Positions 10,455-62,280 of a stretch of DNA of 64,000 nt are shown here, in pieces. Position numbers and translations under genes: made by a program. The notes under the pieces are model-generated. The model did not search any database, was not told where the DNA came from, and saw only the letters and a program-made list of their open reading frames with translations. Location of the stretch: contig JAMPHY010000004.1 in the NCBI GenBank assembly GCA_023663185.1, positions 62,001-126,000 of the forward strand, read 5' to 3'. The DNA is from Clostridiales bacterium (lineage in GTDB: Bacteria; Bacillota; Clostridia; Lachnospirales; Lachnospiraceae). Every line of letters starts with the position of its first letter. Position 1 is the stretch's first letter.

Positions 10455-10494
10455 GACAAGCGGTAATTGGGTATTTTGAAGTAACAGTTTGGCT

Positions 10495-10564
10495 CGGCAG
10501 CGAGGGACTCATATGTTTTACGAAGTGAGTGCGTACCGCAAGGAAAACACATGTCTCTCTGCCG
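10495..10564. repeat. Palindromic intergenic element, CATATG family (copy 1)
   Basis: CGGCAG (10495-10500) pairs with CTGCCG (10559-10564). The arms continue imperfectly inward through GACTCATATGTTTT on the left and AAAACACATGTC on the right. The apex contains GAAGTGAGTGCGTACCGC. It follows rplT and resembles, in its CATATG-bearing arms, the elements near 12.7, 22.8, 24.1, 26.1, 27.3 and 61.2 kb. Confidence 0.6.
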
Positions 10565-10607
10565 CCTGCAGACGAACTGCTGCTTTAGAACTTAAGCTTA
10601 TAGGGGC

Positions 10608-10646: not shown

Positions 10647-10719
10647 CGGGATGTGGCTCAGGTGGTAGAGCGCTACTTTAGGGAAGTAGAGGTCGCAAGT
10701 TCAAGTCTTGTCATTCCGA
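10647..10719 (+). tRNA. tRNA-Pro (anticodon AGG)
   Basis: The 73 bases fold as a full cloverleaf. Acceptor CGGGATG pairs with CATTCCG (one G-T pair), the D stem GCTC pairs with GAGC, and the anticodon stem CTACT pairs with AGTAG around loop TTAGGGA. The T stem GCAAG pairs with CTTGT around TTCAAGT, and the discriminator is A. T33 precedes AGG and G37 follows it, as expected for proline tRNAs. CCA is not encoded. The body matches bacterial tRNA-Pro closely. The first anticodon base A is unusual in bacteria and would normally need conversion to inosine or a special decoding mode. Confidence 0.9.
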
Positions 10720-16262: not shown

Positions 16263-18029
16263 ATGAAGAAAAAATTACTTATGGCAGTTCTGTCGTTGTG
16301 CATTGTCATGTCAATGACGGCATGCGGCAATAATGCAGACACGGAGGAAGTTGTAGAGACAACTGCAACAGAAGACGGTGCGGACGTAAGCACTGACACC
16401 GGCACGCAGGAAGAAACAGGAACGCAGGAACAAGAGGGCGAGGAAACACAGGCGCAGGAAGAAGTGGACGAGTATTACGAGGCGGGACGCAAGAGCCTTT
16501 ACGGGCTGGACGGTGCGCAGATTAACCTTGAGGACGCTTATGCGAATTTCATAAAGTCGCAGGAACTTGGAAATACCGATGCGAATTTCTATCTTGGTCT
16601 GCTTGCCGACTGGTACAGCTATCCTGAGCAGGATTATGAAGAGGCGAAGGCGGCGGCAAAGGAATATTATGAGCAGAGCGGGGACAACCCTTATGCGCAG
16701 GTTGCTTTAGGAGTATTATATTATTATGGGCAGGGCGTAGAAGAAGATACGCAAAAAGGTGAAGAACTTTTTCAGTCAGCGGTAGATAAGGGCGCGGTTG
16801 AAGGATATTATGGGCTTGCTATTGCCGCATACGGTGGGGGAGATTATGAAACCGCACTGGAATATTATAATAAAGTAGTGGAAGAAGGCGGCGAGCAGTT
16901 TTTTATCACAAACGCAATGCGTACTATCGGCGATATGTATGCGTGGGGCAACGGAGTGGAGAAGGACGAGGCAAAAGCGCTTGAGTGGTATACTAAAGCA
17001 GCAGATTCAGGAGATACGTCTGTAATGAGTGATGTCGGCGATATGTATGCGCGTGGCTGGGGATTTGAACAGGACGCAGAAAAAGCGCTTGAATGGTATA
17101 CCAAAGCCGCGGATTCAGGAGATGAATCTGCAATGTGCGCTATCGGCGATATGTATGCGTATGGAGACGGAGTGGCTCAGGACATAGAAAAAGCCGCCGA
17201 ATGGTATACCAAAGCTGCAGATTTAGGGGATGCGTCCGGTCTGTATAATCTTGGCAGTATGTACTATTGGGGCAATGGCGTGGAACAGGACATGGAAAAA
17301 GTCATTGAATGGTATACCAAAGCCGCGGATTTAGGAAATACAGAGGCTATGATTATGCTCGGCGTTATATATAGGGATGGCGACGGAGTGGCTCAGGACA
17401 TAGAAAAGGCTATCGAATGGTATACCAAAGCTGCAGATTCAGGCGATACATACGGTCTGGTTTTGATTGGGAGTATATATGAGTATGGCAATGGAGTGGC
17501 TCAGGACGGCGAAAAAGCCATCGAATGGTATACTAAAGCCGTGGATTTAGGCGATACAGAGGCAATGCGTTCTATCGCCAGCATGTATAAGTTTGGCAAT
17601 GGAGTGGCTCAGGACGGCGAAAAAGCCATCGAATGGTATACCAAAGCCGCGGATTTGGGTGATGCAGAGGCAATGCGTTATATCGGTTATATGTATAGGG
17701 ATGGCGATGGAGTGGCTCAGGACAGCGAAAAAGCTATCGAATGGTTTGTCAAAACAATAAAGTCGGGCGATTCTTGGGGAGGATTCAGTGGCTTAAGGGA
17801 TATCTTAGGCGGATATGATGCGACACTGGAATGGTTCATAGAATCAGGCGATACAGAGGCAATGATATATATTGGCGATTATTATGAAAATAGCTATGGA
17901 AGTAATATAGAAGGAAAGTTGCCTGATTATGATAAGGCAATGGAATGGTATCAGAAAGCGGCAGATTTAGGGAGTGAAGAGGCGCAGGAATATCTTGAGA
18001 GGACACAGGAGAAGATGCAGAGGCAGTAA
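16263..18029 (+). CDS. Sel1-like repeat lipoprotein
   Basis: A 588-residue exported lipoprotein. The start at ATG 16263 follows AAAGGAG and begins a classic signal: basic KKK, hydrophobic stretch, lipobox SMTAC with Cys21. Residues 22-70 are acidic and low-complexity (GTQEETGTQEQEG), probably a wall spacer. From about 75 to the end run at least ten Sel1/TPR-like units of about 36 residues, each like GDGVAQDxEKAIEWYTKAADLGD. The family forms alpha-solenoid scaffolds that mediate protein contacts. The repeats at 17160-17760 are almost identical in DNA, which suggests recent unit duplication. It converges with the symporter gene, 6 bases apart. Confidence 0.92.
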   Translation: MKKKLLMAVLSLCIVMSMTACGNNADTEEVVETTATEDGADVSTDTGTQEETGTQEQEGEETQAQEEVDEYYEAGRKSLYGLDGAQINLEDAYANFIKSQELGNTDANFYLGLLADWYSYPEQDYEEAKAAAKEYYEQSGDNPYAQVALGVLYYYGQGVEEDTQKGEELFQSAVDKGAVEGYYGLAIAAYGGGDYETALEYYNKVVEEGGEQFFITNAMRTIGDMYAWGNGVEKDEAKALEWYTKAADSGDTSVMSDVGDMYARGWGFEQDAEKALEWYTKAADSGDESAMCAIGDMYAYGDGVAQDIEKAAEWYTKAADLGDASGLYNLGSMYYWGNGVEQDMEKVIEWYTKAADLGNTEAMIMLGVIYRDGDGVAQDIEKAIEWYTKAADSGDTYGLVLIGSIYEYGNGVAQDGEKAIEWYTKAVDLGDTEAMRSIASMYKFGNGVAQDGEKAIEWYTKAADLGDAEAMRYIGYMYRDGDGVAQDSEKAIEWFVKTIKSGDSWGGFSGLRDILGGYDATLEWFIESGDTEAMIYIGDYYENSYGSNIEGKLPDYDKAMEWYQKAADLGSEEAQEYLERTQEKMQRQ

Positions 18030-19438: not shown

Positions 19439-19816
19439 ATGAATAAGCAGGATATGGCGTGGCGTTTTGCGCAAGCCTTGTGTCAGTATGCGGGGGAAGA
19501 TAATGAGTTCTTAGAAGGGTTCTGGGATTTGCTGATTAATTCTGAGGACATCTATAATGAATTTGTGTATTATATGGAAAATAGTAATTTTCTGTGTAAG
19601 TATAAGGTGGCAGGCTATACGGTAGTCGATATCATGGTATGGCAGATGGATCACTTTAAGGCGCAGATGGACAGGGGGCATTACGATATGAAGCAGAATG
19701 GGGATAAAATGCTGCTTAGGGCTTTTGATACGATGCTTAAGATGGAGAAACAGCCGGATAAGTATGTGCGGCTGCTTCAGACGGAAACCGGAACGGATTA
19801 TGAAGGGAAATATTAA
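19439..19816 (+). CDS. Conserved hypothetical protein (125 aa)
   Basis: A soluble 125-residue protein starting MNKQDMAWRFAQALCQYAGED and rich in aromatic residues and Asp/Glu (contains YTVVDIMVWQMDHFKAQMDRG). No signal peptide or membrane span. Start at ATG 19439 is chosen because AAAGGAG at about 19419 is too close to the ATG at 19427. I do not recognise a named family. It lies 108 bases before trkA on the same strand; a role in potassium uptake is not indicated. Confidence 0.6.
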   Translation: MNKQDMAWRFAQALCQYAGEDNEFLEGFWDLLINSEDIYNEFVYYMENSNFLCKYKVAGYTVVDIMVWQMDHFKAQMDRGHYDMKQNGDKMLLRAFDTMLKMEKQPDKYVRLLQTETGTDYEGKY

Positions 19817-21331: not shown

Positions 21332-22777
21332 ATGAACTTTTCAATTATAAGATATATATTATTTCGGGTACTTGAGTTTGCTGCGGTTTTTCTGGCGCTG
21401 CCCTGTCTGGTGGCGGTCGTTTATCATGAAAAGGCGGGGTTTGCCTTTGCAATAGTAATGGCAGCTTGTTTTATAATCGCGCAGATAGGAAAAAGATTAT
21501 GGAAGCCAAAAAGTCAGGTTTTTTATGCAAGGGAAGGGTTCGTCACGGTTTCGCTCGCATGGTTTCTGCTTAGTATTGTGGGAGCGCTGCCGTTTTTTAT
21601 AAGCGGTGAGATTCCGAACTTTATTGATGCGCTTTTTGAGACGATTTCGGGGCTGACGACGACGGGGGCAAGCTGTCTTACGGACGTGGAATGTCTGTCC
21701 AAAAGCGTACAGTTCTGGCGGCTTTTTACCCACTGGATAGGCGGTATGGGAGTGCTGGTGCTGATTATCGCGATACTTCCGCTCTCAGGCGGCTACAATA
21801 TGCACCTTATGCGTGCGGAAAGTCCGGGACCTACCGTGGGAAAACTTGTGCCGAAGGTTCAGACGACGGCAAAGATTTTATATTGTATATACATTGTAAT
21901 TACATTGATAGAGATGGTGCTGTTAAAGGCAGCAGGCATGAGTTTTTATGACTCGATTGTACTGTCGTTTTCAACGATGGGAACAGGAGGGTTCGGCGTA
22001 CTTAACAGCAGCGCCGGAAGTTATACCATCACAGTACAGGTTATTCTGACAATATTTATGATACTTGGCGGCATGAATTTTAACGTATATTATCTGCTGG
22101 TGGTTGCGAGGAAGCCGAAGGAAGCTTTGTTCCATGAGGAAGCGAGAGTCTATCTTATGCTGATTTTGGGCGAAGCGGCTCTTATTACATTTAGCATTTG
22201 GGGATATTATGACAGTATCGGTCTTGCCTTTAAAGACGCGATTTTTCAGGTGGCGTCGTTAGCAAGCAGTACCGGATTTTCCACCGCTGATTTTGATATG
22301 TGGCCGGAGTTTGCCAAAGCCGTGCTGATATTTTCAATGGTTATAGGAGCCTGCGCCGGAAGTACCGGTGGCGGTTTTAAGGTATCCAGATTTATGATTT
22401 TGATTCAGGATATGAAGAATGAGTTTATGCGGGTAACGCACCCACAGATAGTTAAAAAGCCGCATTTGGAGGGCAGGGCGGTAGATGATGCGACGGTGCG
22501 CTCCGTAAAATCGTATCTGATAATATATCTGGCAGTCTGCATGGTTTCGTTCATACTTTTATCGTTGGATAAGTTTGACTCGACGACGAATGTCACCGCA
22601 GTCTTAGCGACTGTGAATAATACCGGTCCGGGTATGCACGCGGTAGGTCCTGCCTGCAATTACAACGGATTTTCTGTGTTTTCCAAGCTCGTGTTGATGT
22701 TCGACATGTTGACGGGAAGACTGGAGCTTTTGCCGATGATGATATTGTTTTCGTCGAGGACGTGGAAGAAGTGCTAA
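21332..22777 (+). CDS. trkH: Trk potassium uptake channel subunit TrkH
   Basis: A 481-residue membrane protein of the TrkH/KtrB superfamily, with four pore loops visible by their filter glycines: GLTTTGASC, FSTMGTGGFG, ASSTGFSTADF and TVNNTGPGM. HWIGGMGVLVLIIAILP after the first loop is also characteristic. It conducts K+ inward under TrkA control. Start at ATG 21332 (an in-frame TTG at 21302 is possible). The C-terminus ends GRLELLPMMILFSSRTW, typical of full-length TrkH. A structured intergenic element follows at 22802. Confidence 0.95.
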   Translation: MNFSIIRYILFRVLEFAAVFLALPCLVAVVYHEKAGFAFAIVMAACFIIAQIGKRLWKPKSQVFYAREGFVTVSLAWFLLSIVGALPFFISGEIPNFIDALFETISGLTTTGASCLTDVECLSKSVQFWRLFTHWIGGMGVLVLIIAILPLSGGYNMHLMRAESPGPTVGKLVPKVQTTAKILYCIYIVITLIEMVLLKAAGMSFYDSIVLSFSTMGTGGFGVLNSSAGSYTITVQVILTIFMILGGMNFNVYYLLVVARKPKEALFHEEARVYLMLILGEAALITFSIWGYYDSIGLAFKDAIFQVASLASSTGFSTADFDMWPEFAKAVLIFSMVIGACAGSTGGGFKVSRFMILIQDMKNEFMRVTHPQIVKKPHLEGRAVDDATVRSVKSYLIIYLAVCMVSFILLSLDKFDSTTNVTAVLATVNNTGPGMHAVGPACNYNGFSVFSKLVLMFDMLTGRLELLPMMILFSSRTWKKC

Positions 22778-22801
22778 ATGTAATGCGTAATATTCTTGAA
22801 T

Positions 22802-22953
22802 GCGGCATGAAGTCATATGTTTCTGCTTGAGGTACGCTCTCGCTCCGTGGAAAATCGCAACGGTACTAAGTTCAAAAGCTCGTAAAGCAGCTTTTTCACT
22901 AACTACCGGCGTTTTCCAAGGACCTCAAGTAGAAACATATGATTTCATGCCGC
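22802..22953 (+). repeat. Large structured intergenic element (copy A)
   Basis: GCGGCATGAA at 22802 starts a near-perfect arm that pairs with TTCATGCCGC ending at 22953. The arm runs through TCATATGTTTCTgCTTGAGG and its partner CCTCAAGtAGAAACATATGA, about 33 base pairs. Inside are CCGTGGAAAA pairing with GTTTTCCAAGG, and a hairpin GGTActaAGT..AAAAGCT / AGCTTTT..ACTaacTACC. The core words GTACGCTCTCGCTCCG and CGGTACTAAGTTC recur in copies B and C. No coding sequence and no T run are present. Confidence 0.85.
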
Positions 22954-23035
22954 CCAAGATTGTGAATAAATGGCTGTAAATAATATTACTGTGAATAATG
23001 AATTTTGAAATTATTTGTTAATGGAAGGATAGAAT

Positions 23036-24055
23036 ATGCAAAAAGAAAACATCAGGATAAAGAAAGTCATAGTACATATCATGGACTCTACGGTTGGAAT
23101 GCCGGTGCTTTCGGATACAGAGTTGGAGTATGGTTCGGAATTTGCGGATTTTATCAAGGAGCATATCGCTAAAATCAGCTCTGGCGACGATGCGAAGGAG
23201 TGCCGTTTCTATAAGGAGGAGTCCGAAGTTTATCATATTTTGGAGCAATATTCTGATGATTCGTTCATAGATATAAGCAAGGATATCGCGCAGCTTCTGT
23301 ATGAAATTATGAACAGCAATATAGATATTCCGGCGGCGGACCTTGTGATTGTGCGTTTTCAATACGATGACAAAGAGTATCTTGCCCTGCTTAAGATGAA
23401 TTATAAATCCCTGTATACGCATAGGACGCTGCCTGTTTCTGACGGAAACAGCAACGAGATTATCAGGCATAAATCGATTCTGCCGTCTGAGAGCCAGCGG
23501 CTTACCGAAGCAGCGATTATCAGGCTTGATGACCTTGCAGTGTGGGTGATTGAGAAAAAGTATGAGGTCAACGGTGAAAAGACGGATTACTTTTCTTTCC
23601 TTTTCTTAAAATGCAGCAGCCATATGTCGCACAAGTCCAAGCTTTCCATAGTGAGCAGGGCGGTAGACAGCGTGCAGAGAGAGGGCTATGACGAGACTGA
23701 GTGTTTTGCGAAGCAGATGGAGGCTAAGCGCATTATTCAGGAGGAAATAGAGGAGAACGGCGGATTCACCGTCGAAACTATAGCGGAGAAAATTTTTGAA
23801 GAAAAACCGGAATTGAAAGTTGCTTTTCAGGATAAAATGGAAAAGTATAACATGGTGAAGGAAGAAGTGCAGCCGCAGAGCGAAAATACCGTTAAGAAAT
23901 ATCAGAGCCAGCATCTTTATACGGATACGGGCATTGAAATCAAGATTCCGATGGAGCAGTATAAGAATCCGAGGAGTGTGGAATTTATTACCAATCCTGA
24001 CGGGACGGTGTCTGTGCTGATTAAGAATATTGAGCATTTGGAAGCGAGGATGTGA
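23036..24055 (+). CDS. Nucleoid-associated protein, NA37/YejK family
   Basis: A 339-residue protein matching the NA37 (NdpA/YejK) family: it begins IRIKKVIVHIMDSTVGMPVLSDTELE, has LVIVRFQYDDKEYLALLKMNYKSLYTH near 105-130, and FFLFLKCSSHMSHKSKLSIVSRAVD near 187-213. The C-terminal part carries IEIKIPMEQYKNPRSVEFITNPDGTVSVLIKNI. The family associates with the nucleoid; its molecular job is poorly known. The Firmicute versions often stand near structural or defence genes. Start at ATG 23036 after GGAAGG. It is flanked on both sides by structured elements A and B. Confidence 0.85.
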   Translation: MQKENIRIKKVIVHIMDSTVGMPVLSDTELEYGSEFADFIKEHIAKISSGDDAKECRFYKEESEVYHILEQYSDDSFIDISKDIAQLLYEIMNSNIDIPAADLVIVRFQYDDKEYLALLKMNYKSLYTHRTLPVSDGNSNEIIRHKSILPSESQRLTEAAIIRLDDLAVWVIEKKYEVNGEKTDYFSFLFLKCSSHMSHKSKLSIVSRAVDSVQREGYDETECFAKQMEAKRIIQEEIEENGGFTVETIAEKIFEEKPELKVAFQDKMEKYNMVKEEVQPQSENTVKKYQSQHLYTDTGIEIKIPMEQYKNPRSVEFITNPDGTVSVLIKNIEHLEARM

Positions 24056-24063
24056 CAGTTAGA

Positions 24064-24225
24064 AGCCGACATGAACTCATATGCTTCCATTTGAGGCACG
24101 CTCTCGCTCCGTATAAAATCGCAGCGGTACTAAGCTCGAAAAGACCTCGCTAAAGTACAAGACCACTTTCAGTGGTCTGCGTTTTATAAGGACCTCAAAT
24201 GAAAGTATATGAGTTCATGTCGGCT
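24064..24225 (+). repeat. Large structured intergenic element (copy B)
   Basis: AGCCGACATGAACTCATAT at 24064 pairs with ATATGAGTTCATGTCGGCT ending at 24225, then ATTTGAGG with CCTCAAAT. The arm sequence differs from copy A at many positions but remains paired. The core repeats CACGCTCTCGCTCCGT and CGGTACTAAGCTC. CCGTATAAAA pairs with TTTTATAAGG, where copy A has CCGTGGAAAA and TTTTCCAAGG, so the change is compensated. An extra hairpin AGACCACTTTCAGTGGTCT sits in the apical part. Confidence 0.85.
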
Positions 24226-24277
24226 AAACATTGTGGATAGTAGAAGATATCTTAATAGTAGTTGACGGGGGGCGCAT

Positions 24278-25441
24278 ATGGGAACGATTATTAAATATAT
24301 TAAAGAATACGGCGATTATACGTTAGATGAGAAGCCGTTAAACGAGGTGGATAGTCTGGTCTTGTCGCAGTTTGCCTATCTTAAGTTTGACGGTCTGGTT
24401 CCTAATGTCGATGAAAAGAAGGAAGCTGTGGATATGCAGTATTTGCTGGCGCATGAGAATTATAACATGCTCTATGCAGATGAGCGTTACAGGGAGAGCA
24501 ATACGGAGCTTTTTAACGTAATGGCGAAAAGCAGGCGTTTCGGTAATATGAAATTGAATAATTATGTAAACCAGATAAATGATGAAGAAGAAACTCAGTT
24601 TTCAGCCGTAACCTGTCAGTTGGCGGACGATATTTTTTATGTGGTTTATCGTGGCACTGATGAGAAGATTGTAGGCTGGAAGGAAGATTTGAATCTGGCT
24701 TTTTCCGAGCCTGTTCCGGGGCAGGTAATGAGTGTGGAATATTTGTGCAGCGTGGCTAAAGGGATTGATACGCCTTTTTATGTGGGCGGGCATTCTAAGG
24801 GCGGAAACCTTGCGATATATGCGTCCATGAACTGTGGGGAGCAGGTGCAGGAGAAGATTAAAACCATCTTTTGCCATGACGGACCGGGATTCAGACCGGA
24901 AGTGCTGGAAAAGTGCGGATATAATAAAATTGAGAGTAAAATCAGAAGGACGATACCGCATTCTTCGCTGGTAGGGCTGATTTTGTATTCCGAGGGCAGC
25001 TATCGCGTAGTGGAGAGCAAATATATCGGGTTAATGCAGCATGATCCGTATTCGTGGCTGGTAGACGAAGATGATTTCAGAATCGTAAAAGACGTTTATT
25101 CCAGTGCGATGTTCAGGGATAAGGCGCTTAACGAGTGGATTTTGTCGCTTAATCAGGAGCAGATGCGGATTTTTGTGGATACGCTCTATGAGATAGTAAA
25201 AGCGTCGGAGGCGGACAATCTGATAGACTTTTCAGCCAACTGGAAAAGAAGTATTCAGGGTATCTTGGAAGCGGTCAAAAACGTCGATACGGAAACTAAG
25301 CAGATGATGAGCAATATGCTTAAGAACCTGTTCGATGTGATTTCACAACACGCCAAAGAGGAGCTTCAAATAAGAAAGAAAACGCAAAAAAGCAAGTGGG
25401 ACGAAGGTAAAAATTATTTGGAGCATATGCTTAAAAAATAA
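24278..25441 (+). CDS. DUF2974 (Mbeg1-like) alpha/beta-hydrolase-fold protein
   Basis: A 387-residue cytoplasmic protein of the DUF2974/Mbeg1-like group. It shows YRGTDEKIVGWKEDLNLAF near 124-142 and the nucleophile elbow VGGHSKGGNLAIYASMN near 169-185 (GxSxG with Ser173), and CHDGPGF near 198-204, where lipases carry an acidic residue. The fold resembles lipase class 3; the natural substrate is unknown. The C-terminal 130 residues are helical and charged. Its 3' end overlaps the convergent amidotransferase gene by 28 bases. It begins after structured element B. Confidence 0.85.
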   Translation: MGTIIKYIKEYGDYTLDEKPLNEVDSLVLSQFAYLKFDGLVPNVDEKKEAVDMQYLLAHENYNMLYADERYRESNTELFNVMAKSRRFGNMKLNNYVNQINDEEETQFSAVTCQLADDIFYVVYRGTDEKIVGWKEDLNLAFSEPVPGQVMSVEYLCSVAKGIDTPFYVGGHSKGGNLAIYASMNCGEQVQEKIKTIFCHDGPGFRPEVLEKCGYNKIESKIRRTIPHSSLVGLILYSEGSYRVVESKYIGLMQHDPYSWLVDEDDFRIVKDVYSSAMFRDKALNEWILSLNQEQMRIFVDTLYEIVKASEADNLIDFSANWKRSIQGILEAVKNVDTETKQMMSNMLKNLFDVISQHAKEELQIRKKTQKSKWDEGKNYLEHMLKK

Positions 25442-26058
25442 TATAGAAGTTCACAGCCGCCGCCTGCAAGGAGTCGTTCGGGGTGCCATTGCACCGCCAT
25501 AATCGGAAGTTTCTCATGTATAATACCTTCCACAACGCCGTCTTTGGACTGGCATACGGGGATAAGCCCTTTGCCGAGGCGGTCTATGCCTTGATGGTGC
25601 GCTGAATTGACGTAGGCGCTGTTTTCATAAAGCTGATAGAAAAAGTCTGTATTGTCGTCACCGATATGATATACATAATGAAACTGGTCGCCATCATTGT
25701 ATCTGTGGCGCTCTGCAGTTCTTAAATGCTGATGGATAGTGCCGCCAAAGTGGACGTTTATAATCTGAAGTCCTTTGCATATGCCGAGTATGGATTTTTT
25801 TTCATTTATAAACATTTCAAGCGCGCGAAACTGTTCAATGTCCAGATTCGTGTCGATGGATTTAGAGCCGCGGTTAAGCTGTCCGAAAAAAGCGGGAGTT
25901 ATGTCGCCGCCGCCGGGCAAAAGAAGGGCGTCGCAGTCTTTATACTGCGCGGGTTCAAGGGAAGTGACGGTATTTGCGCCCAGACTGTGCAGCGCATTTT
26001 CATAATTGACGGTATCGGGGCTTCTGCCTACGATGGCGATGGTTGCTGTCGGATACAT
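25414..26058 (-). CDS. Gamma-glutamyl-gamma-aminobutyrate hydrolase family (peptidase C26)
   Basis: A 214-residue class I glutamine-amidotransferase-like hydrolase. The catalytic set is visible: LLLPGGGDITP near 46-55, nucleophile Cys94 in LGICKGLQIINV, and His192/Glu194 in VQWHPERLL. Free-standing members (PuuD-like) cut gamma-glutamyl amides such as gamma-glutamyl-GABA. Members also process folate or peptidoglycan-derived gamma-glutamyl compounds, so the substrate is open. The 3' end overlaps the DUF2974 gene (28 bases, tail to tail). A GGAGA ribosome site lies before the start at 26058. Confidence 0.88.
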   Translation of the reverse strand: MYPTATIAIVGRSPDTVNYENALHSLGANTVTSLEPAQYKDCDALLLPGGGDITPAFFGQLNRGSKSIDTNLDIEQFRALEMFINEKKSILGICKGLQIINVHFGGTIHQHLRTAERHRYNDGDQFHYVYHIGDDNTDFFYQLYENSAYVNSAHHQGIDRLGKGLIPVCQSKDGVVEGIIHEKLPIMAVQWHPERLLAGGGCELLYYFLSICSK

Positions 26059-26130
26059 GGACTCTCCTTTCTAAACTCTGCCCTTAGGGGAGATTAAGAC
26101 ATATTATGTTATTATTCGTGGATTAGGGAT

Positions 26131-26220
26131 ATGAGCGAAAGTGTGCTACTCATGGCGCTATGCGCCAGTGGCGCATGTTTAGCGCCGACCGGAACGGAGT
26201 GTAGAAACATATAAGCTCAT
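26131..26220. repeat. Degenerate structured intergenic element (copy D)
   Basis: ATGAGC (26131-26136) pairs with GCTCAT (26215-26220), and the right arm GTAGAAACATATAAGCTCATGCCG closely matches the right arm of copy A. The interior has a strong hairpin, GGCGCTaTGCGCC with GGCGCAtgtttAGCGCC. It lacks the CTCTCGCTCC core of copies A-C, so it looks like a shortened or decayed member. Confidence 0.55.
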
Positions 26221-26257
26221 GCCGTATATGATTTATAGTATGCAAAATATGATTAGT

Positions 26258-26286
26258 TTGACATTGTTTATCTTTAGATGTAATAT
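26258..26286 (+). promoter_or_regulatory. Putative promoter of the serine protease gene
   Basis: TTGACA (26258-26263), 17-base spacer, TAATAT (26281-26286). About 125 bases lie between it and the start codon at 26412. The rest of the gap from 26059 holds element D. Confidence 0.6.
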
Positions 26287-26411
26287 AATTTTAGGCAAAA
26301 TGGCACATAATAGTGAAGAGATGATGTAGGTAAATGCGAAGATGCCGATACATACATTTTCTCTTTTTTTACTATAATAAACTATTTGTTAAGCGGGCGT
26401 GGAGGACATAT

Positions 26412-27230
26412 ATGCTGCGTAGGAAGCGGTTTGTAATCTTGTTTTCGGTAATCAGTTTAATACTTGCTGTAAATATGTCTGTACTGCCTGTGTATGCGCG
26501 TGAGCCGAATATGCCGCACCTTATACAGACGGTGACGGAGCAGGATATCTTTGAAGGGATGCTTTCGCTTGGCTTTCTGGAGATACAGCCGCTTGAAGAG
26601 GCGGACTGCGATAAGGCGTATGCAGATGTGAAAAACAGCATTGTGCGCATAGATATGGGAAATAATTACGGAAGCGGAATTATCTGGAAAATTACCACAG
26701 AGGATATTATAATAGTGACTAATAAGCATGTCCTTGATTATTGGGACGAACAGATAAGCAATGTCTGTTTCCCTATGGGATATTATGCAAACGCTGAGAT
26801 TCTTGGCATATCCGATGAGCATGACGTAGGCTTTTTAACGGTGGAAAATAAGGAGTTGGATTATATTCTGCTTGAGCGGCTTAAGTATGCGCATGTGGAT
26901 ATGGAAATTTATGAAAATATGTCCGAGGGCGACGAGATATTCAGCGTGGGCGCTAATTCTAGAAATGAAGATGGAATATATGATGTGGACGAGAGCATGA
27001 TATACTGTCTTGGCAGCGTGGGGAATATGTGGCAGTATATCGACGAGTTTGGCGAACATATGATATACGGATACGGTTATGGAGTGCCCGGAATGTCAGG
27101 CGGGGGTACGTTTGATGCCAAAGGCAATCTGATAGGAATGATTTCCGGCGGGACGTATGACGGGGAGATAGCGAGCATACCGCTGACGACTATTATAGAG
27201 GTGTTTGAGGAGCTGGCTTGGGAGGAGTAG
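26412..27230 (+). CDS. Secreted trypsin-like serine protease (S1C/HtrA-like, no PDZ)
   Basis: A 272-residue exported protein. Start at ATG 26412, 7 bases after GGAGGA; an in-frame ATG at 26334 would add residues before the signal peptide. Residues 1-29 are a signal peptide (RRKRF, hydrophobic core, VYA-R). The chymotrypsin-like triad is visible: His106 in VTNKHVLDY, Asp138 in DEHDVGFLTV, and Ser229 in VPGMSGGGTFD. No PDZ domain follows. It should act outside the membrane on proteins. It stands alone between elements D and C. Confidence 0.88.
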   Translation: MLRRKRFVILFSVISLILAVNMSVLPVYAREPNMPHLIQTVTEQDIFEGMLSLGFLEIQPLEEADCDKAYADVKNSIVRIDMGNNYGSGIIWKITTEDIIIVTNKHVLDYWDEQISNVCFPMGYYANAEILGISDEHDVGFLTVENKELDYILLERLKYAHVDMEIYENMSEGDEIFSVGANSRNEDGIYDVDESMIYCLGSVGNMWQYIDEFGEHMIYGYGYGVPGMSGGGTFDAKGNLIGMISGGTYDGEIASIPLTTIIEVFEELAWEE

Positions 27231-27241
27231 AGTGGTTCACA

Positions 27242-27433
27242 GGCAGCATGAACGCATATGTTCTCCTTCGTGGTACGCTCTCGCTCCAGTGAATAAACAA
27301 ACGAATGTCACGCTACGCGGACATTCTTATTGTTACGCAGCGGTACTAAGTTCAAAAGCCGTTTCACGTCTTTTTCACTAAGTACCGGCGTTTTTCAAGG
27401 ACCGCTCAGGAGAACATATGCGTTCATACTGCC
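27242..27433 (+). repeat. Large structured intergenic element (copy C)
   Basis: GGCAGcATGAACGCATATGTTCTCCT at 27242 pairs with AGGAGAACATATGCGTTCATaCTGCC ending at 27433, again with an arm sequence unlike copies A and B. The core repeats GTACGCTCTCGCTCC, CGGTACTAAGTTCAAAAGC and TTTTTCACTAAGTACCGGCGTTTTTCAAGGACC. It also carries an extra hairpin GAATGTCacgctacgcgGACATTC. It lies between the protease stop and the next gene; the short reading frame through it is not believable as a gene. Confidence 0.85.
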
Positions 27434-27477
27434 AGCAAGCTGGACAGAGCAGGATTTAAAAAGGAGTACGAAACAGA

Positions 27478-28455
27478 GTGATAAAGATAGAAGTAAAAGA
27501 AGGGAAGGCACAGTGGATTAGCGGTATCGGAGTGATTTTGTGCGGGATAGCGTATGGCGTTATCGTTACGGTAGTTCCGACTAAATCCGCCAAAGGTGAG
27601 ATTATATATTATCTGCTGGTATATCTGACGGCGGCGGTCTGTATTCTTGCAGGCGCATGGCTGTGCATGGGCGCAAAAAACAGAAAACTGCTCATAGAAG
27701 ATACTGCGCTTTGTTATACCAACTGCTTTGGGAAAAGGCGCAAATTTGCGCTAAGTGATATTGCATATTGCCGTACTGCGCTGGAAAATGGCGGAAACAG
27801 AAATTATCTAAAGTTGTATGACGTAGAGTACAAAAAGTTATGTAAACTTGAATATAATATGTGCGACTCTGCCTTATTCTTACAATATTTGATTGACAAT
27901 CAGGTTAAAATAGAATGTTCAGAGAAATCTGATTACATGTTGAAAAATATGTTGGAGATGGAAACCATATCTCAGGAAGCAATAGCAGATACCGTGAATA
28001 ATGTTTATAAAGAGGCGAAAGCGCTTATTGGAGAATGGACGGAAAAGAATAAAAGCTTCGGCGTGTCATGGAAAATGGGGCTTGCGGCTTATAATGACAA
28101 TGAAATAGAAGATAAGAAACAGTTGTGGGAGCAAAAAGGCTGCGCCATGTCGGAAAATCTGTCCGGAAATTCGACGGAAAATCTGCCGGAAGGCTACATA
28201 ATAGCGATGGAATGTTATTTGCTAAAAGATAGCGAATTTGTAATAAATAAAAGGGGGAAGGCGATTTGTTTCTTTGCCCCGGTAATCAGTACGTCAAAGT
28301 CTCTCAAAGTGGGAGAGATTTTAAAAATTAGCAATTATAGGAACGCAGTCAGCGAGCTTTCATATGGATTAAAAGAGCTTGCCAATGAACTTCCAAGAAA
28401 CAGATACCACACAGAAACGCTGGTTTTACAGCATGAATTAAAAGACGGTCTGTAA
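27478..28455 (+). CDS. Membrane-anchored hypothetical protein (325 aa)
   Basis: Starts with GTG 27478, 11 bases after AAGGAG. Residues 12-35 and 44-66 are two transmembrane helices (GIGVILCGIAYGVIVTVV and YYLLVYLTAAVCILAGAWLC); the rest is a cytoplasmic domain. A PH-like strand pattern follows the helices (KLLIEDTALCYTNCFGKRRKFALSDIAYC), then helical and mixed segments. I do not recognise a named family beyond this two-helix plus PH-like layout. It lies 22 bases before the aldose epimerase gene and may be co-transcribed with it. Confidence 0.6.
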   Translation: MIKIEVKEGKAQWISGIGVILCGIAYGVIVTVVPTKSAKGEIIYYLLVYLTAAVCILAGAWLCMGAKNRKLLIEDTALCYTNCFGKRRKFALSDIAYCRTALENGGNRNYLKLYDVEYKKLCKLEYNMCDSALFLQYLIDNQVKIECSEKSDYMLKNMLEMETISQEAIADTVNNVYKEAKALIGEWTEKNKSFGVSWKMGLAAYNDNEIEDKKQLWEQKGCAMSENLSGNSTENLPEGYIIAMECYLLKDSEFVINKRGKAICFFAPVISTSKSLKVGEILKISNYRNAVSELSYGLKELANELPRNRYHTETLVLQHELKDGL

Positions 28456-35242: not shown

Positions 35243-36478
35243 ATGACAAAAATTGATATTGTATCCGGTTTTCTCGGAGCCGGCAAGACTACTTTGATAA
35301 AGAAGCTTTTAAAAGAGGCTCTCTCAGATACTAAGGTGGTACTGATAGAGAATGAGTTTGGCGAGATAGGAATAGACGGCGGTTTCCTTAAAGAAGCGGG
35401 AATTGAAATAAAAGAAATGAATTCCGGCTGCATATGCTGTTCACTGGTAGGAGATTTTGGGGCTTCTTTAAAAGAAGTGCTGTCAACATATACGCCTGAG
35501 AGAATACTGATTGAGCCTTCGGGAGTAGGCAAGCTTTCCGATGTTATGAAGGCTGTTCAGGGGGCGATGCAGAATGAGGACGTTGCGCTAAACAGCGCCG
35601 TTGCTGTGGTAGACGCGAGCAAGTGCAAGATGTATATTAAGAATTTCGGGGAGTTTTTTATTAATCAGATAGAACATGCCGGAACTATTATTCTGAGCAG
35701 AACCGACAAGCTGAGCGAAGAAAAGCTGTCCGCGTGCGTCGATATGATAAGGGAGCACAACAGCAAGGCGACTATCATTACGACTCCGTGGGACGAACTG
35801 GAAGGAAAAGATATCTTAGAGACAATAGAAGGCGCAAAGGACTTAGAGGCGGAGCTGATGAAAGAAGTTATGGCGCTTCGTGATGAGCACGAGCACCATC
35901 ACCATCATGACGATGAGCACGAACATGAGCATCACCATCATGATGATGACGACGAGCATGAGCATGAACACCATCACCACGATGATGACGAGCATGAACA
36001 TCATCATCACGACGATGAGCACCACCATCACCATGACGAACACGAGCACCATCACCATGATGACGACGAGCATGAGCACCATCACCATCACGACGATGAC
36101 GAGCACGAGCATGAACACTATCATCACGATGACGAACACGAGCACCATCACCATCACGATGAACACGGACACGACCATCACCACCATCATGCAGACGAGA
36201 TATTTACAAGCTGGGGTATCGAAACGCCCGCTTCATATACCAAAGAAGATATTGAGAAGAGGCTGCATGAACTTGATAAAGAAGATGAATACGGCATTGT
36301 ACTCCGTGCCAAAGGCATGGTTCCTGACAAGGACGGAACGTGGGTATACTTTGACTATGTTCCGGAAGAGTGCGATATCAGGGAAGGCAAGCCGGACGTT
36401 ACCGGTAAAATCTGCGTGATTGGCTCTAAGCTGAAGGAGGATAAGCTTGCGGAGCTGTTTAGCACGGAGAAGAAATGA
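35243..36478 (+). CDS. CobW/G3E-family metallochaperone GTPase with His/Asp/Glu-rich insert
   Basis: A 411-residue soluble GTPase. Walker A GFLGAGKTT (about 9-17), the metal-binding CICC (63-66), EPSGVGK (91-97) and ILSRTDKL (the NKxD position reads SRTD) define the COG0523 fold. Residues about 213-315 are almost only His, Asp and Glu (DDEHEHHHHHDDD-type units), a large metal store. The last 90 residues form the CobW C-terminal domain (YGIVLRAKGMVP, WVYFDYVP). It should bind Zn, Ni or Co and deliver it to client enzymes. Start at ATG 35243; the ATG at 35231 is one base from AAAGGAG. Twin palindromes upstream suggest metal control. Confidence 0.92.
   Translation: MTKIDIVSGFLGAGKTTLIKKLLKEALSDTKVVLIENEFGEIGIDGGFLKEAGIEIKEMNSGCICCSLVGDFGASLKEVLSTYTPERILIEPSGVGKLSDVMKAVQGAMQNEDVALNSAVAVVDASKCKMYIKNFGEFFINQIEHAGTIILSRTDKLSEEKLSACVDMIREHNSKATIITTPWDELEGKDILETIEGAKDLEAELMKEVMALRDEHEHHHHHDDEHEHEHHHHDDDDEHEHEHHHHDDDEHEHHHHDDEHHHHHDEHEHHHHDDDEHEHHHHHDDDEHEHEHYHHDDEHEHHHHHDEHGHDHHHHHADEIFTSWGIETPASYTKEDIEKRLHELDKEDEYGIVLRAKGMVPDKDGTWVYFDYVPEECDIREGKPDVTGKICVIGSKLKEDKLAELFSTEKK
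35880..36193 (+). repeat. Imperfect tandem CAC/CAT/GAC/GAG codon repeats (His-rich insert)
   Basis: About 310 bases made of short units such as GATGAGCACGAGCACCATCACCAT, encoding the metal-binding His/Asp/Glu insert of the CobW-like protein. The repeats are imperfect, mixing CAC with CAT and GAC with GAT, so the insert has been maintained at protein level. Reading frames on the other strand here are by-products. Confidence 0.85.
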
Positions 36479-53566: not shown

Positions 53567-54415
53567 ATGGAAGAAGAAACAATACTAAAGACTTATGAAG
53601 AAAGAAGAAAACAGGCAGGGGAATTTAACTTAACAAGCGACTTATTCGCAGGAAAGGTATTTGAGGACAGGGAAGCATGTCAGGAATTGTGTCGGATATT
53701 GCTGCAGGATAACAAAATCGTCATTAAGGACGTAAAGACCAAATATGCTATCCGCAACCTAGAAAACCATTCGGTAGAGTTGGATATTTTCGCAGAGGAC
53801 ATAAGTGGAAAACTTATCAACGTCGAGATACAGATGTATGAAGAAAAGTCGCCGTTTAGGAGAGTGCGATATTATCTATCGAGCATAGACATGAGTATAC
53901 TGGAAAAAGGAAAGCCCTACAATGAATTGCCAGATGTGACGCTAGTATACATATCTAAAGGAGATTTTATCGGCGCTGAAAGAGGACGTTATAAATCACC
54001 CAGAAAAGCAGACGAGCAGGACGTTACCATGTCACTTGACAATGGACTGCAGGAGATATATTTTAATCTTGAATACTACACGGACGATGCCAAGATAAAT
54101 GAACTGCTTGAATATTTCAAGGACTCGAAACCTGACTACATAACAAAGAATTTTCCAAGAATAGTGGAGCGTGTAAGATATTTTAAGGTACAGAAGGAAG
54201 GAGTAAATACTATGTGTGAAATAGCTGATAGAATTAGAAGAGAAGGAGAGCAGGAAGGAATAAGGAAAGGAAAACAGGAAGGAATTAGAGAGAGCATTAT
54301 AAATTCCCTAAAGAACCTGATAAAAAACGCGCATATGACACTAGAACAGGCTATGACAGTATTGGAAATTCCAGAGAATGACAAACAGATGTATGTTATG
54401 GAACTGAAACAGTAG
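53567..54415 (+). CDS. Rpn family PD-(D/E)XK nuclease (second copy)
   Basis: A 282-residue protein of the Rpn family, more typical than the copy at 7272: TSDLFAGKVFEDREACQELCRILLQDNKIVIKDVKTKY, then the active-site SVELDIFAED..LINVEIQM (Asp72 and E-x-Q). It continues with FRRVRYYLSSIDMSILEKGKPYNELPDVTLVYIS and ends in a charged GEQEGIRKGKQEGIRE helix. The C-terminal cassette is repeated downstream at 54416, so the gene sits next to its own duplicated tail. Such nucleases are linked to recombination and anti-plasmid or phage effects. RBS GGGGG. Confidence 0.88.
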   Translation: MEEETILKTYEERRKQAGEFNLTSDLFAGKVFEDREACQELCRILLQDNKIVIKDVKTKYAIRNLENHSVELDIFAEDISGKLINVEIQMYEEKSPFRRVRYYLSSIDMSILEKGKPYNELPDVTLVYISKGDFIGAERGRYKSPRKADEQDVTMSLDNGLQEIYFNLEYYTDDAKINELLEYFKDSKPDYITKNFPRIVERVRYFKVQKEGVNTMCEIADRIRREGEQEGIRKGKQEGIRESIINSLKNLIKNAHMTLEQAMTVLEIPENDKQMYVMELKQ

Positions 54416-54488
54416 AAGGGGTAAATACTATGTGTGAAATAGCTGACAGAATTAGAAGAGAAGGAGAGCAGGCTGGAATAAGGAAAGG
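54198..54488 (+). repeat. Direct repeats of about 73 bases from the Rpn tail (54198-54270 and 54416-54488)
   Basis: AAGGAGTAAATACTATGTG at 54198 and AAGGGGTAAATACTATGTG at 54416 start two near-identical 73-base copies with about four differences. They encode CEIADRIRREGEQ(E/A)GIRKG. The first lies inside the Rpn gene, the second just after its stop. Confidence 0.85.
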
Positions 54489-54624
54489 TATAAAGGAAGG
54501 CGAAAATCTGTTTGCCTCGCTGTTAAACCTGCTCTTTGCCGACGGCAGAACAGAAGACGCAAAGAAGGCAGCGGCAGACGTTACAGAGAGAAATAAACTC
54601 TACAAAGAATACGGAATTGTATGA
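54430..54624 (+). pseudogene. Duplicated Rpn C-terminal tail cassette
   Basis: A 64-residue frame from ATG 54430 (MCEIADRIRREGEQAGIRKG, the Rpn tail repeat) followed by a different C-terminus, SLLNLLFADGRTEDAKKAAADVTERNKLYKEYGIV. That is a typical alternative end of other Rpn proteins. It has no N-terminal nuclease domain, so it is a spare tail or a fragment left by a recombination. It could become the active end if the two repeats recombined. A ribosome site GAAGGGG precedes it, so it may also be expressed as a small protein. Confidence 0.6.
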
Positions 54625-61329: not shown

Positions 61330-62280
61330 ATGCAGAAAGAAGAAATTTTACATATTTTTCCTGACTTCATGCGCAGCAGATGGGAGAAAGTGGCAGAGCA
61401 GGCAAAACGCCTTCAGGAAATACGAATGCGCGTCAATCAGCCTGTTATGATACTCATGGACAATAAGGAGTGGTTTCTTAAAAGCAGCGGAGAGTTGACA
61501 AACGATGTGTCTTGGGCAGTATGCAGTAGTGAAAAGGAGCTGGAAGCGGTGCTTACCCATGTGTGCCATTACTCCATCTATGCTTTTGCAGATGAGATAA
61601 GGCAGGGGTTTATGACGATTCCGGGCGGACACCGTATCGGACTGTCAGGACAGGTTATATTGGAGAATAGTGAGCAGATAAGAAATATAAAATACATTCG
61701 CTATCTTAATATCCGTATTGCGCATGAAATCAAAGGAGTATCGGATAAAACGCTTCCTTATTTATATCAGGGTAAAGAGGTCTTAAATACCTTGATTATT
61801 TCACCGCCCGGCTGCGGTAAAACCACGATGTTAAGAGATTTAGTGAGAAACTTTTCTAAAGGAAATGCCTATGGAAAAGGGCGCAACGTAGGGCTGGTAG
61901 ACGAACGTTCTGAGATTGCGGGAAGTTTCTTAGGAGTGCCGCAGAACGATATCGGGACGCGCACAGATGTGATGGACGCCTGCCCGAAAAGTGAGGGAAT
62001 GATGATGTTGATTCGCTCTATGTCGCCAGATATCCTTGCTGTTGATGAATTAGGAAGCGCTAAAGACGTAGAGGCGATACATCAGGCGCTTCAATGCGGC
62101 TGTAAAATGCTTGCCACGATACATGGTTTTTCCCTTGAAGAAGTAGAACGCAAAGAGTATATGAAGTCCGTTATTAAAGAGCAGCTTTTTGACAGGTACA
62201 TGCTGCTTGGCAAGAAAAACGACAAGTGCGTCATAATTGGCATATATGATAGAGAGAGGAAACTATGCTCAGACTTGTAG
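61330..62280 (+). CDS. spoIIIAA: Stage III sporulation protein AA (SpoIIIAA ATPase)
   Basis: A 316-residue secretion-ATPase-like protein. QEIRMRVNQPVMILMDN, FADEIRQGFMTIPGGHRIGLSGQV and IKYIRYLNIRIAHEIKG precede the nucleotide-binding part: Walker A SPPGCGKTTMLRD, Walker B DILAVDELGSAKDVEAI, and the Glu-rich DERSEIAGSF. It powers the SpoIIIA-SpoIIQ feeding-tube complex between mother cell and forespore. The downstream gene starts 16 bases inside its 3' end. Start ATG after GGGGGCGG. Confidence 0.95.
   Translation: MQKEEILHIFPDFMRSRWEKVAEQAKRLQEIRMRVNQPVMILMDNKEWFLKSSGELTNDVSWAVCSSEKELEAVLTHVCHYSIYAFADEIRQGFMTIPGGHRIGLSGQVILENSEQIRNIKYIRYLNIRIAHEIKGVSDKTLPYLYQGKEVLNTLIISPPGCGKTTMLRDLVRNFSKGNAYGKGRNVGLVDERSEIAGSFLGVPQNDIGTRTDVMDACPKSEGMMMLIRSMSPDILAVDELGSAKDVEAIHQALQCGCKMLATIHGFSLEEVERKEYMKSVIKEQLFDRYMLLGKKNDKCVIIGIYDRERKLCSDL

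Follow-up and report, generated by a model that had tools for sequence, protein, structure and literature searches.

The 64,000-nucleotide stretch analysed here (the window) covers positions 62,001 to 126,000 of contig JAMPHY010000004.1 from a Clostridiales bacterium of the family Lachnospiraceae (assembly GCA_023663185.1). Three palindromic elements of 152-192 bp, named A, B and C, lie in this window among genes whose products have protein matches to TrkH, NA37, Mbeg1-like and trypsin-like peptidase families, among others (Table 1). An inverted-repeat search delimits arms of 32-33 bp in each of them, with 88-126 nt between the arms. As detailed below, A, B, C and their copies are non-autonomous transposons, i.e. 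miniature inverted-repeat transposable elements (MITEs), with terminal inverted repeats, target duplications and orthologous sites from which they are absent, and one of their two strands carries a strand-specific, covarying three-way junction.

The initial annotation of this DNA, made from the letters alone, had placed A, B and C and their complementary arms correctly. The core words it had reported as common to the three elements are exact and far above shuffled expectation, ACGCTCTCGCTCC being found at 22834, 24098 and 27275 (five window matches with up to 2 mismatches versus a shuffle mean of 1.08) and GGTACTAAG at 22862, 24126 and 27342 (three window matches versus 0.21). The covarying inner pairs, CCGTGGAAAA/TTTTCCAAGG versus CCGTATAAAA/TTTTATAAGG, are likewise present in the sequence, and A-C hold no gene, as inferred from the lack of any open reading frame (ORF) of at least 80 codons inside them. 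Two statements needed amendment: the elements are not wholly devoid of a T run, since four or five T come immediately after the inner hairpin (GCGTTTT), and the recognisable RNA motifs sit on the minus strand, opposite to the one that had been read. Finally, the decayed fourth copy D is real but only a remnant, consisting, as read from the sequence, of one arm plus the GNRA-side GCGAAAGTGTGCTACTCATGG stretch on the plus strand; it has no covariance-model match, since A, B and C were the only elements found in the window with the model R1 (E up to 0.01).

Table 1. Coordinates of the elements, their parts and related features in the window.
Feature	Position	Strand	Description and evidence
Element A	22802..22953	-	Outer stem 22802-22833/22922-22953 (94% complementary), three-way junction, inner arm; covariance model R1 162.0 bits (A is one of the rows used to build R1)
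GNRA mini-hairpin of A, GC-GAGA-GC	22836..22843	-	Sequence and loop census
Remnant of terminal repeat TTRCTRTTCACAG, 5' side of A's structured strand	22960..22970	-	Flank TTATTCACAATCTTGG, read by eye; a script chose a different place
Element B	24064..24225	-	Arms 24064-24096/24193-24225 (94% complementary); R1 109.7 bits (B absent from alignment A1)
GNRA mini-hairpin of B	24100..24107	-	Position of the shared word
Extra hairpin AGACCACTTTCAGTGGTCT inside B	24160-24178
Terminal repeat of B CTACTATCCACAA, 5' side of structured strand	24231..24243	-	3 mismatches
Element C	27242..27433	-	Arms 27242-27274/27401-27433 (88% complementary); R1 89.0 bits (C absent from alignment A1)
GNRA mini-hairpin of C	27277..27284	-	Position of the shared word
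Additional hairpin of ~40 nt in inner stem of C	about 27291-27333		Same kind in copy L021
Element D, decayed or rearranged remnant	about 26140..26227	+	Inverted-repeat pair I4, family D5
Short relative: arms and part of the junction	10489..10566	+	nhmmer E 2.6e-4

Ends, target duplications and empty sites

The initial annotation had proposed to gather copies in related genomes and build a covariance model, to look for flanking target duplications and to examine position relative to gene ends; these analyses yielded pairing that covaries well above shuffled controls, duplications of 8 bp in the main class, and many copies close behind stop codons, mostly in antisense. The full unit is longer than the hairpin and, in the main class, starts with GTTACTRTTCACAG and finishes with CTGTGAAYAGTAAC. 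Allowing up to 4 mismatches, both ends were found in 8 of 41 copies of the genome carrying the window and one end in 16 of 41, as compared with 1 of 41 random 130-nt stretches. In other genomes the corresponding figures are 3 of 62 for both ends, 8 of 62 for one end and 5 of 62 for the control; therefore, other ends dominate there.

For the 29 bounded elements, the 8 bp flanking the two ends show an identity of 0.483 versus 0.309 in shuffled pairs and are at least 70% identical in 8 cases versus 0.58 expected. Exact 8-bp duplications frame copies L190 and L047, and most of the 29 are now without a visible one. A target duplication of 20-25 bp, suggested by L025, was considered and rejected because the aggregate signal lies at 8 bp, which leaves L025 and L208 unexplained.

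Comparison with genome G007, which is syntenic and has most aligned flanks about 85-96% identical, provided orthologous sites; out of 15 candidate empty-site rows, nine were aligned. Sites that look empty in one of the two genomes were found for L025 versus L113, L003:4592 versus L097, L114 versus L030 and L065 versus L016. L089 of G007 compared with the window near 19813 also looks like an insertion, as does, less clearly, L081:6697 versus L019. The pairs L115/L017 and L118/L004 resemble internal deletions, and L020/L134 represents a larger difference of about 480 bp. The pair L115/L017 had raised the idea that one arm is copied from the target at insertion; this was discarded, since related arms are found in further copies of that class, L017 thus holding the remnant of a deletion.

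One core in several classes of ends

At least three classes of MITE, which differ in their ends and are unrelated in arm sequence, contain the same core. Besides the main class, a second one carrying the core ends in AGGTAATTGCGAAACT and a third one in CACGGAAATCAATTTTCAG, the latter with an 8-bp duplication that is exact in L067 and matches at 7 of 8 positions in L123 and L093. When the ends of the long arms were compared, 7 or 8 of 8 positions matched in 11 of 62 copies versus 2 of 62 in a shifted control. Core-less elements with GTTACTRTTCACAG-class ends exist as well, and a core-less MITE of the AGGTAATTGCGAAACT class, 87 bp long (L027 2791-2877), has the ends AGGTAATTGCGAAAC and an exact 11-bp duplication, AATAAATGAAT. 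In genome G022 a gene for a PF03050 (IS66-type) transposase lies between the ends GTTACAATTCATGG and GTTACTATTCACGG, which are 3 and 1 mismatches away from GTTACTRTTCACAG; from this similarity we infer that a transposase of the IS66 type may move the GTTACTRTTCACAG class in trans.

Copy number and distribution

Two covariance models of the element, R1 and R2, were used for genome searches, R1 being built from an alignment of 38 copies (A1). Three of the 45 copies of the first set (partial, less than 100 nt) were left out of later sets, and of the 42 left, four (L021, L023, B and C) are absent from A1 on account of their large internal insertions, L003:16532 being retained despite a like insertion; for the set A4, an E-value cut-off served to discard partial and reverse-strand matches. 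The R1 search located the element at no fewer than 50 distinct places in its own genome, B and C not being among the 50 listed. A BLAST-type genome search with A as query returned 48 matches from the best 40 of 91 candidates, some of these matches being the reverse strand of one same place.

Among relatives, R1 matched 34 of 61 genomes, with 34 of 37 in the same genus (own genome included) and 0 of 24 in other families of the order; across the Lachnospiraceae it matched 97 of 250 genomes and 96 of 249 sampled genera. R2 matched 42 of 294 genomes across the order, all 42 in the same family, and 5 of 398 across the phylum, four of them in the same family and one, G906, in another. This last genome has 7 matches on several contigs (L249, L254, L258 and L263) and the same core in the four copies that were read. 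A metagenome-assembled genome labelled Muribaculaceae (JAMPHJ01; L067 and L093) carries elements at contig coordinates identical to those of G017, a genome of the window's genus; its label thus looks wrong.

The earlier statement that the elements belong to no family recognised as described agrees with database and literature searches. At gathering thresholds Rfam matched only a tRNA in the 64-kb window, and it returned nothing for 22700-24300, which contains A and B, at E up to 5. Among the open-access titles listed for its core words or for Lachnospiraceae together with MITE, there was no paper on the element.

Fold and covariation of the structured strand

In each element one strand is structured, the minus strand in the case of A-C. 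It folds into a long outer stem, a two-pair GNRA hairpin and an inner arm with the conserved core, meeting in a three-way junction, and the inner arm contains a conserved CGGYACUUAG/CUUAGUACCG stem as well as a bulge of two nucleotides. In a typical copy, the order along the structured strand is: 5' arm - TCCTTGTAAAACG - CCGGTACTTAG - terminal hairpin - CTTAGTACCGCTGCG - ATTTTACACGGA - GCGAGAGC - GTG - 3' arm, GCGAGAGC being the two-pair hairpin closed by the GNRA loop. With single-copy exceptions, CGYCGGYACTTA, CTTAGTACCG, the YT bulge and GAGCGNRAGCG are conserved in the core, and the outer stem is free in sequence.

The GNRA loop is present in 38 of 38 A1 copies (GAGA in 32, GAAA in 4 and GGGA in 2), and its two-pair stem is compensated (GC/GC 34, AC/GT 3, GT/AC 1). 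A scripted census of the A2 set, which contains a few reverse-strand and partial rows, recovered a GNRA loop in 56 of 66 rows (GAAA, GAGA, GCAA, GGAA, GGGA or GCGA); 7 rows had other letters and 3 lacked the hairpin. RNAalifold predicted 53 pairs from a structure-free MAFFT alignment of the 38 own copies, 29 of them with two-sided compensatory changes. In 64 copies from about 29 genera two-sided changes occur at 53 of 53 pairs, 94.0% of the cells are pairing versus 61.6 +/- 0.5% after shuffling and 34-44% after sliding, and covariation scores 0.832 versus 0.205 in the control; this alignment holds one or two copies per locus and was aligned to the model, so its numbers favour structure, the margin being large.

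Two further features distinguish the strands. Folding energy was lower on the GNRA strand in 8 of the 9 copies folded both ways, A being the exception (-83.2 for the other strand versus -80.3). In the outer stem, G-U exceeds A-C when the GNRA strand is read, with 44:12 in own copies, which had been found without a covariance model, and 72:40 in other genomes. The ratio is similar in antisense (102:51) and sense (51:24) copies; therefore, a mutational bias linked to transcription or replication is an unlikely cause.

Position and orientation relative to genes

Neighbours were assigned to 188 placed copies with a gene on both sides (ORFs of at least 120 codons), copies at the edge of a locus (1 of 42, 18 of 106 and 4 of 63) having been dropped from the counts. 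Relative to the GNRA strand, 117 of the 188 copies have a stop codon to their 3' side, i.e. in antisense (median distance 26 nt, 93 within 60 nt), and 67 have one to their 5' side, i.e. in sense (median 62 nt, with 33 no farther away than 60 nt). TATAAT-like words with up to 1 mismatch, directed towards the element, were present on the 5' side of 32 of 42 own copies versus 24-28 of 42 in three other settings. No conserved partner gene emerged, the 10 proteins encoded beside copies at five low-copy loci having no family in common. The replication strand is not favoured as the cause of the orientation bias, orientation following the genes at 5 of 6 lagging-strand sites, with only 6 sites being informative.

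Copies less than 600 bp apart show a peculiar arrangement in the fetched loci: they stand head to head, with the 5' ends of their GNRA strands facing each other, in 14 of 15 distinct pairs (e.g. L003 11007/11318, L018 2495/2760, L129 2155/2345 and L158 1019/1182) and never tail to tail. Before one place that had been fetched twice was counted once, the figure was 15 of 16. This locus-based count is complete for the copies gathered, close pairs from listed coordinates having been chosen by eye, and the arrangement is not accounted for by gene orientation.

Change after insertion

The fate of the fold after insertion was followed in 15 orthologous copies of G000 and G007. Their outer stems contain 31 compensated pairs versus 1.6 expected, none in which both sides changed and the pair was broken, and 16 single changes that preserved pairing as against 12 that disrupted it. 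The inner stems show 16 compensated pairs versus 0.6 expected, one pair broken by changes on both sides, and single changes that kept the pair 11 times and broke it 8 times. All stems taken together thus hold 47 compensated pairs versus about 2 expected. Divergence between the orthologues amounts to 37 of 924 sites in the core, 119 of 959 in the arms and 681 of 2804 in the 100-nt flanks, badly aligned flanks included.

A probable folded RNA domain carried by a mobile element

We propose that the element is a MITE consisting entirely of a single long hairpin, which is tipped by a conserved, folded RNA domain, an account to which we assign a probability of roughly 0.6. Its identity as a mobile element with a fold conserved at the RNA level is very probable, and not all the alternatives discussed below are exclusive of it. 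What the RNA does is a more tentative matter, with odds somewhat short of even for a putative cis-acting domain. Each time the GNRA strand is transcribed, the core would act in cis at the RNA level, its most likely role being to bind a protein or nuclease. Lying in sense just behind a stop codon, such a core would alter the 3' end of the mRNA and be mostly selected against, the antisense orientation being tolerated; selection on the RNA activity would work copy by copy after insertion, aided by exchange between copies. It can be speculated, with still greater reserve, that the domain is a passenger, that is, one module riding in several MITE families with different ends and transposases, present in about 100 genera of one bacterial family and in one genome or more of another family of the phylum, kept functional in each copy, and perhaps constituting a new ribozyme or a protein-binding RNA through which the 3' ends of host transcripts are controlled.

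If this account is right, a widespread structured RNA missing from Rfam has been spread by transposons through a large family of gut bacteria, reaching at least 50 copies in some genomes, and there would be a well-defined case of a mobile element keeping an RNA fold under selection after insertion. The RNA-level role of bacterial intergenic repeats, which is an old question, would then become directly testable, and a covariance model built like R1 or R2 would allow annotation of the element by others.

Several observations weigh against the account. With regard to mobility, L025 and L208 have the same ends as the main class but flank repeats of 25 and 28 bp with mismatches instead of 8, a free search for direct repeats in the flanks, not anchored on the ends, gave no clear excess, and only 4 of the 41 genomes of the genus contain the end GTTACTRTTCACAG without mismatch. 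The link to IS66 consists of the similar ends of one transposon, which has no clear 8-bp duplication, and there was no PF03050 match in G000 or G007. As for the RNA, G-U exceeds A-C only weakly in the G007 set (93:71, p 0.10) and shows no excess where the genes around a copy converge or diverge (37:35), and no promoter signal emerged at a constant spacing 5' of the hairpin. Of 138 copies with co-directional neighbours, 94 have the GNRA strand antisense to both and 44 have it in sense, so that a plain RNA of 3' untranslated regions does not account for everything. Six of the 15 orthologous pairs combine a short terminal hairpin with a long one, and template switching within the palindrome, together with exchange or gene conversion between copies, could have made part of the compensation.

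These observations also settle how far the first suggestions on this DNA can be followed. The reading as a structured RNA of 3' untranslated regions stands as far as the strand-specific covarying fold is concerned and is incomplete in view of the mostly antisense orientation. That of a non-autonomous mobile element with palindromic arms is borne out by the MITE-like features, empty sites and target duplications, and holds alongside the RNA option. The third suggestion, a terminator or insulator, stays as the main rival to our account, although we regard it as unlikely. The element would be a mobile bidirectional terminator or insulator, in which an A-tract, a GC hairpin and a T-tract on both strands give genes their transcription ends, the position behind stop codons being functional. 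The many copies whose GNRA strand meets a stop codon closely on its 3' side speak for it, as does a T-tract (at least 4 T among the first six bases beyond the inner hairpin), which 34 of 64 copies have on the GNRA strand and 42 of 64 on the other. The same counts mean that the T-tract is absent in half of the copies on the former strand and in a third on the latter. Moreover, the most strictly conserved part, the GNRA hairpin, falls outside such a terminator on its own strand, and a terminator pattern scan of 22500-27600 flagged nothing at the shared core hairpins of A-C, only the extra hairpin of B and a site in a gene.

A conserved RNA domain has also to be weighed against an ordinary MITE without RNA function, whose arms covary through template-switching repair and through copies converting one another, a possibility that we consider rather improbable. 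The swapping of terminal hairpins fits it: a short GCGAGG...TTTTCGAGC form and a long GTGAAAAAGC...GCTTTTGAAC form alternate at the same site in L019 2501/L081 6982, L015/L106, L017/L075, L010/L119, L016/L065 and L009 11011/L121, the arms being nearly unchanged in some of these pairs, which indicates exchange between copies. That arms are near-perfect yet free in sequence is equally what such repair would leave. Nonetheless, the asymmetric parts that it would erase, namely the GNRA loop, the bulge and the one-sided junction, are conserved across about 29 genera, the GNRA stem is itself compensated from GC/GC to AC/GT and GT/AC, and one strand has more G-U than A-C. Contributions may come from selection, from exchange between copies and from template switching inside the palindrome, the conservation of the asymmetric core arguing for selection. 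Thus, the selection on structure that had been claimed from A-C receives support from the covarying fold, with the reservation that part of the arm covariation possibly reflects gene conversion or template switching in palindromes.

It is improbable that the structured strand works as single-stranded DNA, for instance as an intermediate of transposition or replication, rather than as RNA. A strand-specific fold, an intergenic position and mobility would all suit such a role, and G-T pairs are tolerated in DNA too. However, the third base of the loop is mostly a purine, with A, C, G and T all seen at the N position of GNRA, and GNRA loops with a purine third base and tandem G-A pairs fit RNA better; in addition, orientation follows genes and not replication, the informative cases being few (the six sites mentioned above). 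A family of trans-acting small RNAs, serving as sponge or regulator in many copies, would account for the high copy number and conserved core but is just as improbable, given the lack of a promoter signal at a fixed distance and of a shared neighbouring protein family.

Comparison with known systems

Many-copy intergenic palindromic repeats are well known in bacteria, ERIC, REP/BIME and Correia/NEMIS being examples, and the element resembles them in these respects; going by general descriptions of those repeats, it differs in its conserved centre, variable arms, GNRA three-way junction and ends. Integron attC sites form strand-specific hairpins just after stop codons and keep their structure while the sequence varies, in which they are like the element. 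The consensus of the attC core sites is RYYYAAC/GTTRRRY; judged by eye, the ends found here (GTTACTR) do not fit GTTRRRY, and the neighbours scanned here are ordinary chromosomal genes. MITEs of the IS66 family are a possible parallel, since the GTTACTRTTCACAG ends resemble those of the IS66-type element in G022 and the present MITEs have 8-bp target duplications; the element is set apart from them by its conserved RNA core.

The closest published relatives that we found are the bcr1-bcr18 repeats of the Bacillus cereus group, intergenic repeats of 100-400 bp with mobile features, of which bcr1 averages 39 copies per strain (PMC6542083) and bcr1-bcr3 are MITE-like, the comparison being by description. 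Conserved secondary structures have been described for bcr10 and bcr18, with transcription of roughly half of the copies (PMC3446304). The bcr repeats belong to another host group and their mobility is tied to a TTTAT motif; moreover, as described in these reports, MITE-like behaviour and conserved RNA structure reside in different bcr families, whereas both are combined in one element here, and a core common to MITEs with different ends is unlike the bcr repeats so described. Among 3161 candidate structured RNAs from the human microbiome, 250 are palindromic and 230 of these have predicted terminators (PMC8040213). The examples given in that report are mostly or only from Bacteroidetes, and, our comparison being by description, overlap with the element is possible.

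Other features of the window

A PADLOC scan of four proteins encoded next to A-C gave weak matches only, e.g. to the trypsin-like domain of 26334-27230. The short relative at 10489-10566 lies just upstream of the tRNA gene at 10647, the sole Rfam-matched tRNA gene in the window. Repeats of other kinds are a low-complexity repeat at 35859-36182, which is spaced in multiples of 3 nt and probably encodes a repetitive protein segment, two copies of 86 nt at 54197-54500 that are 92% identical and start 218 nt apart, and, at 16826-17753, seven copies of a repeat with a 108-bp period.

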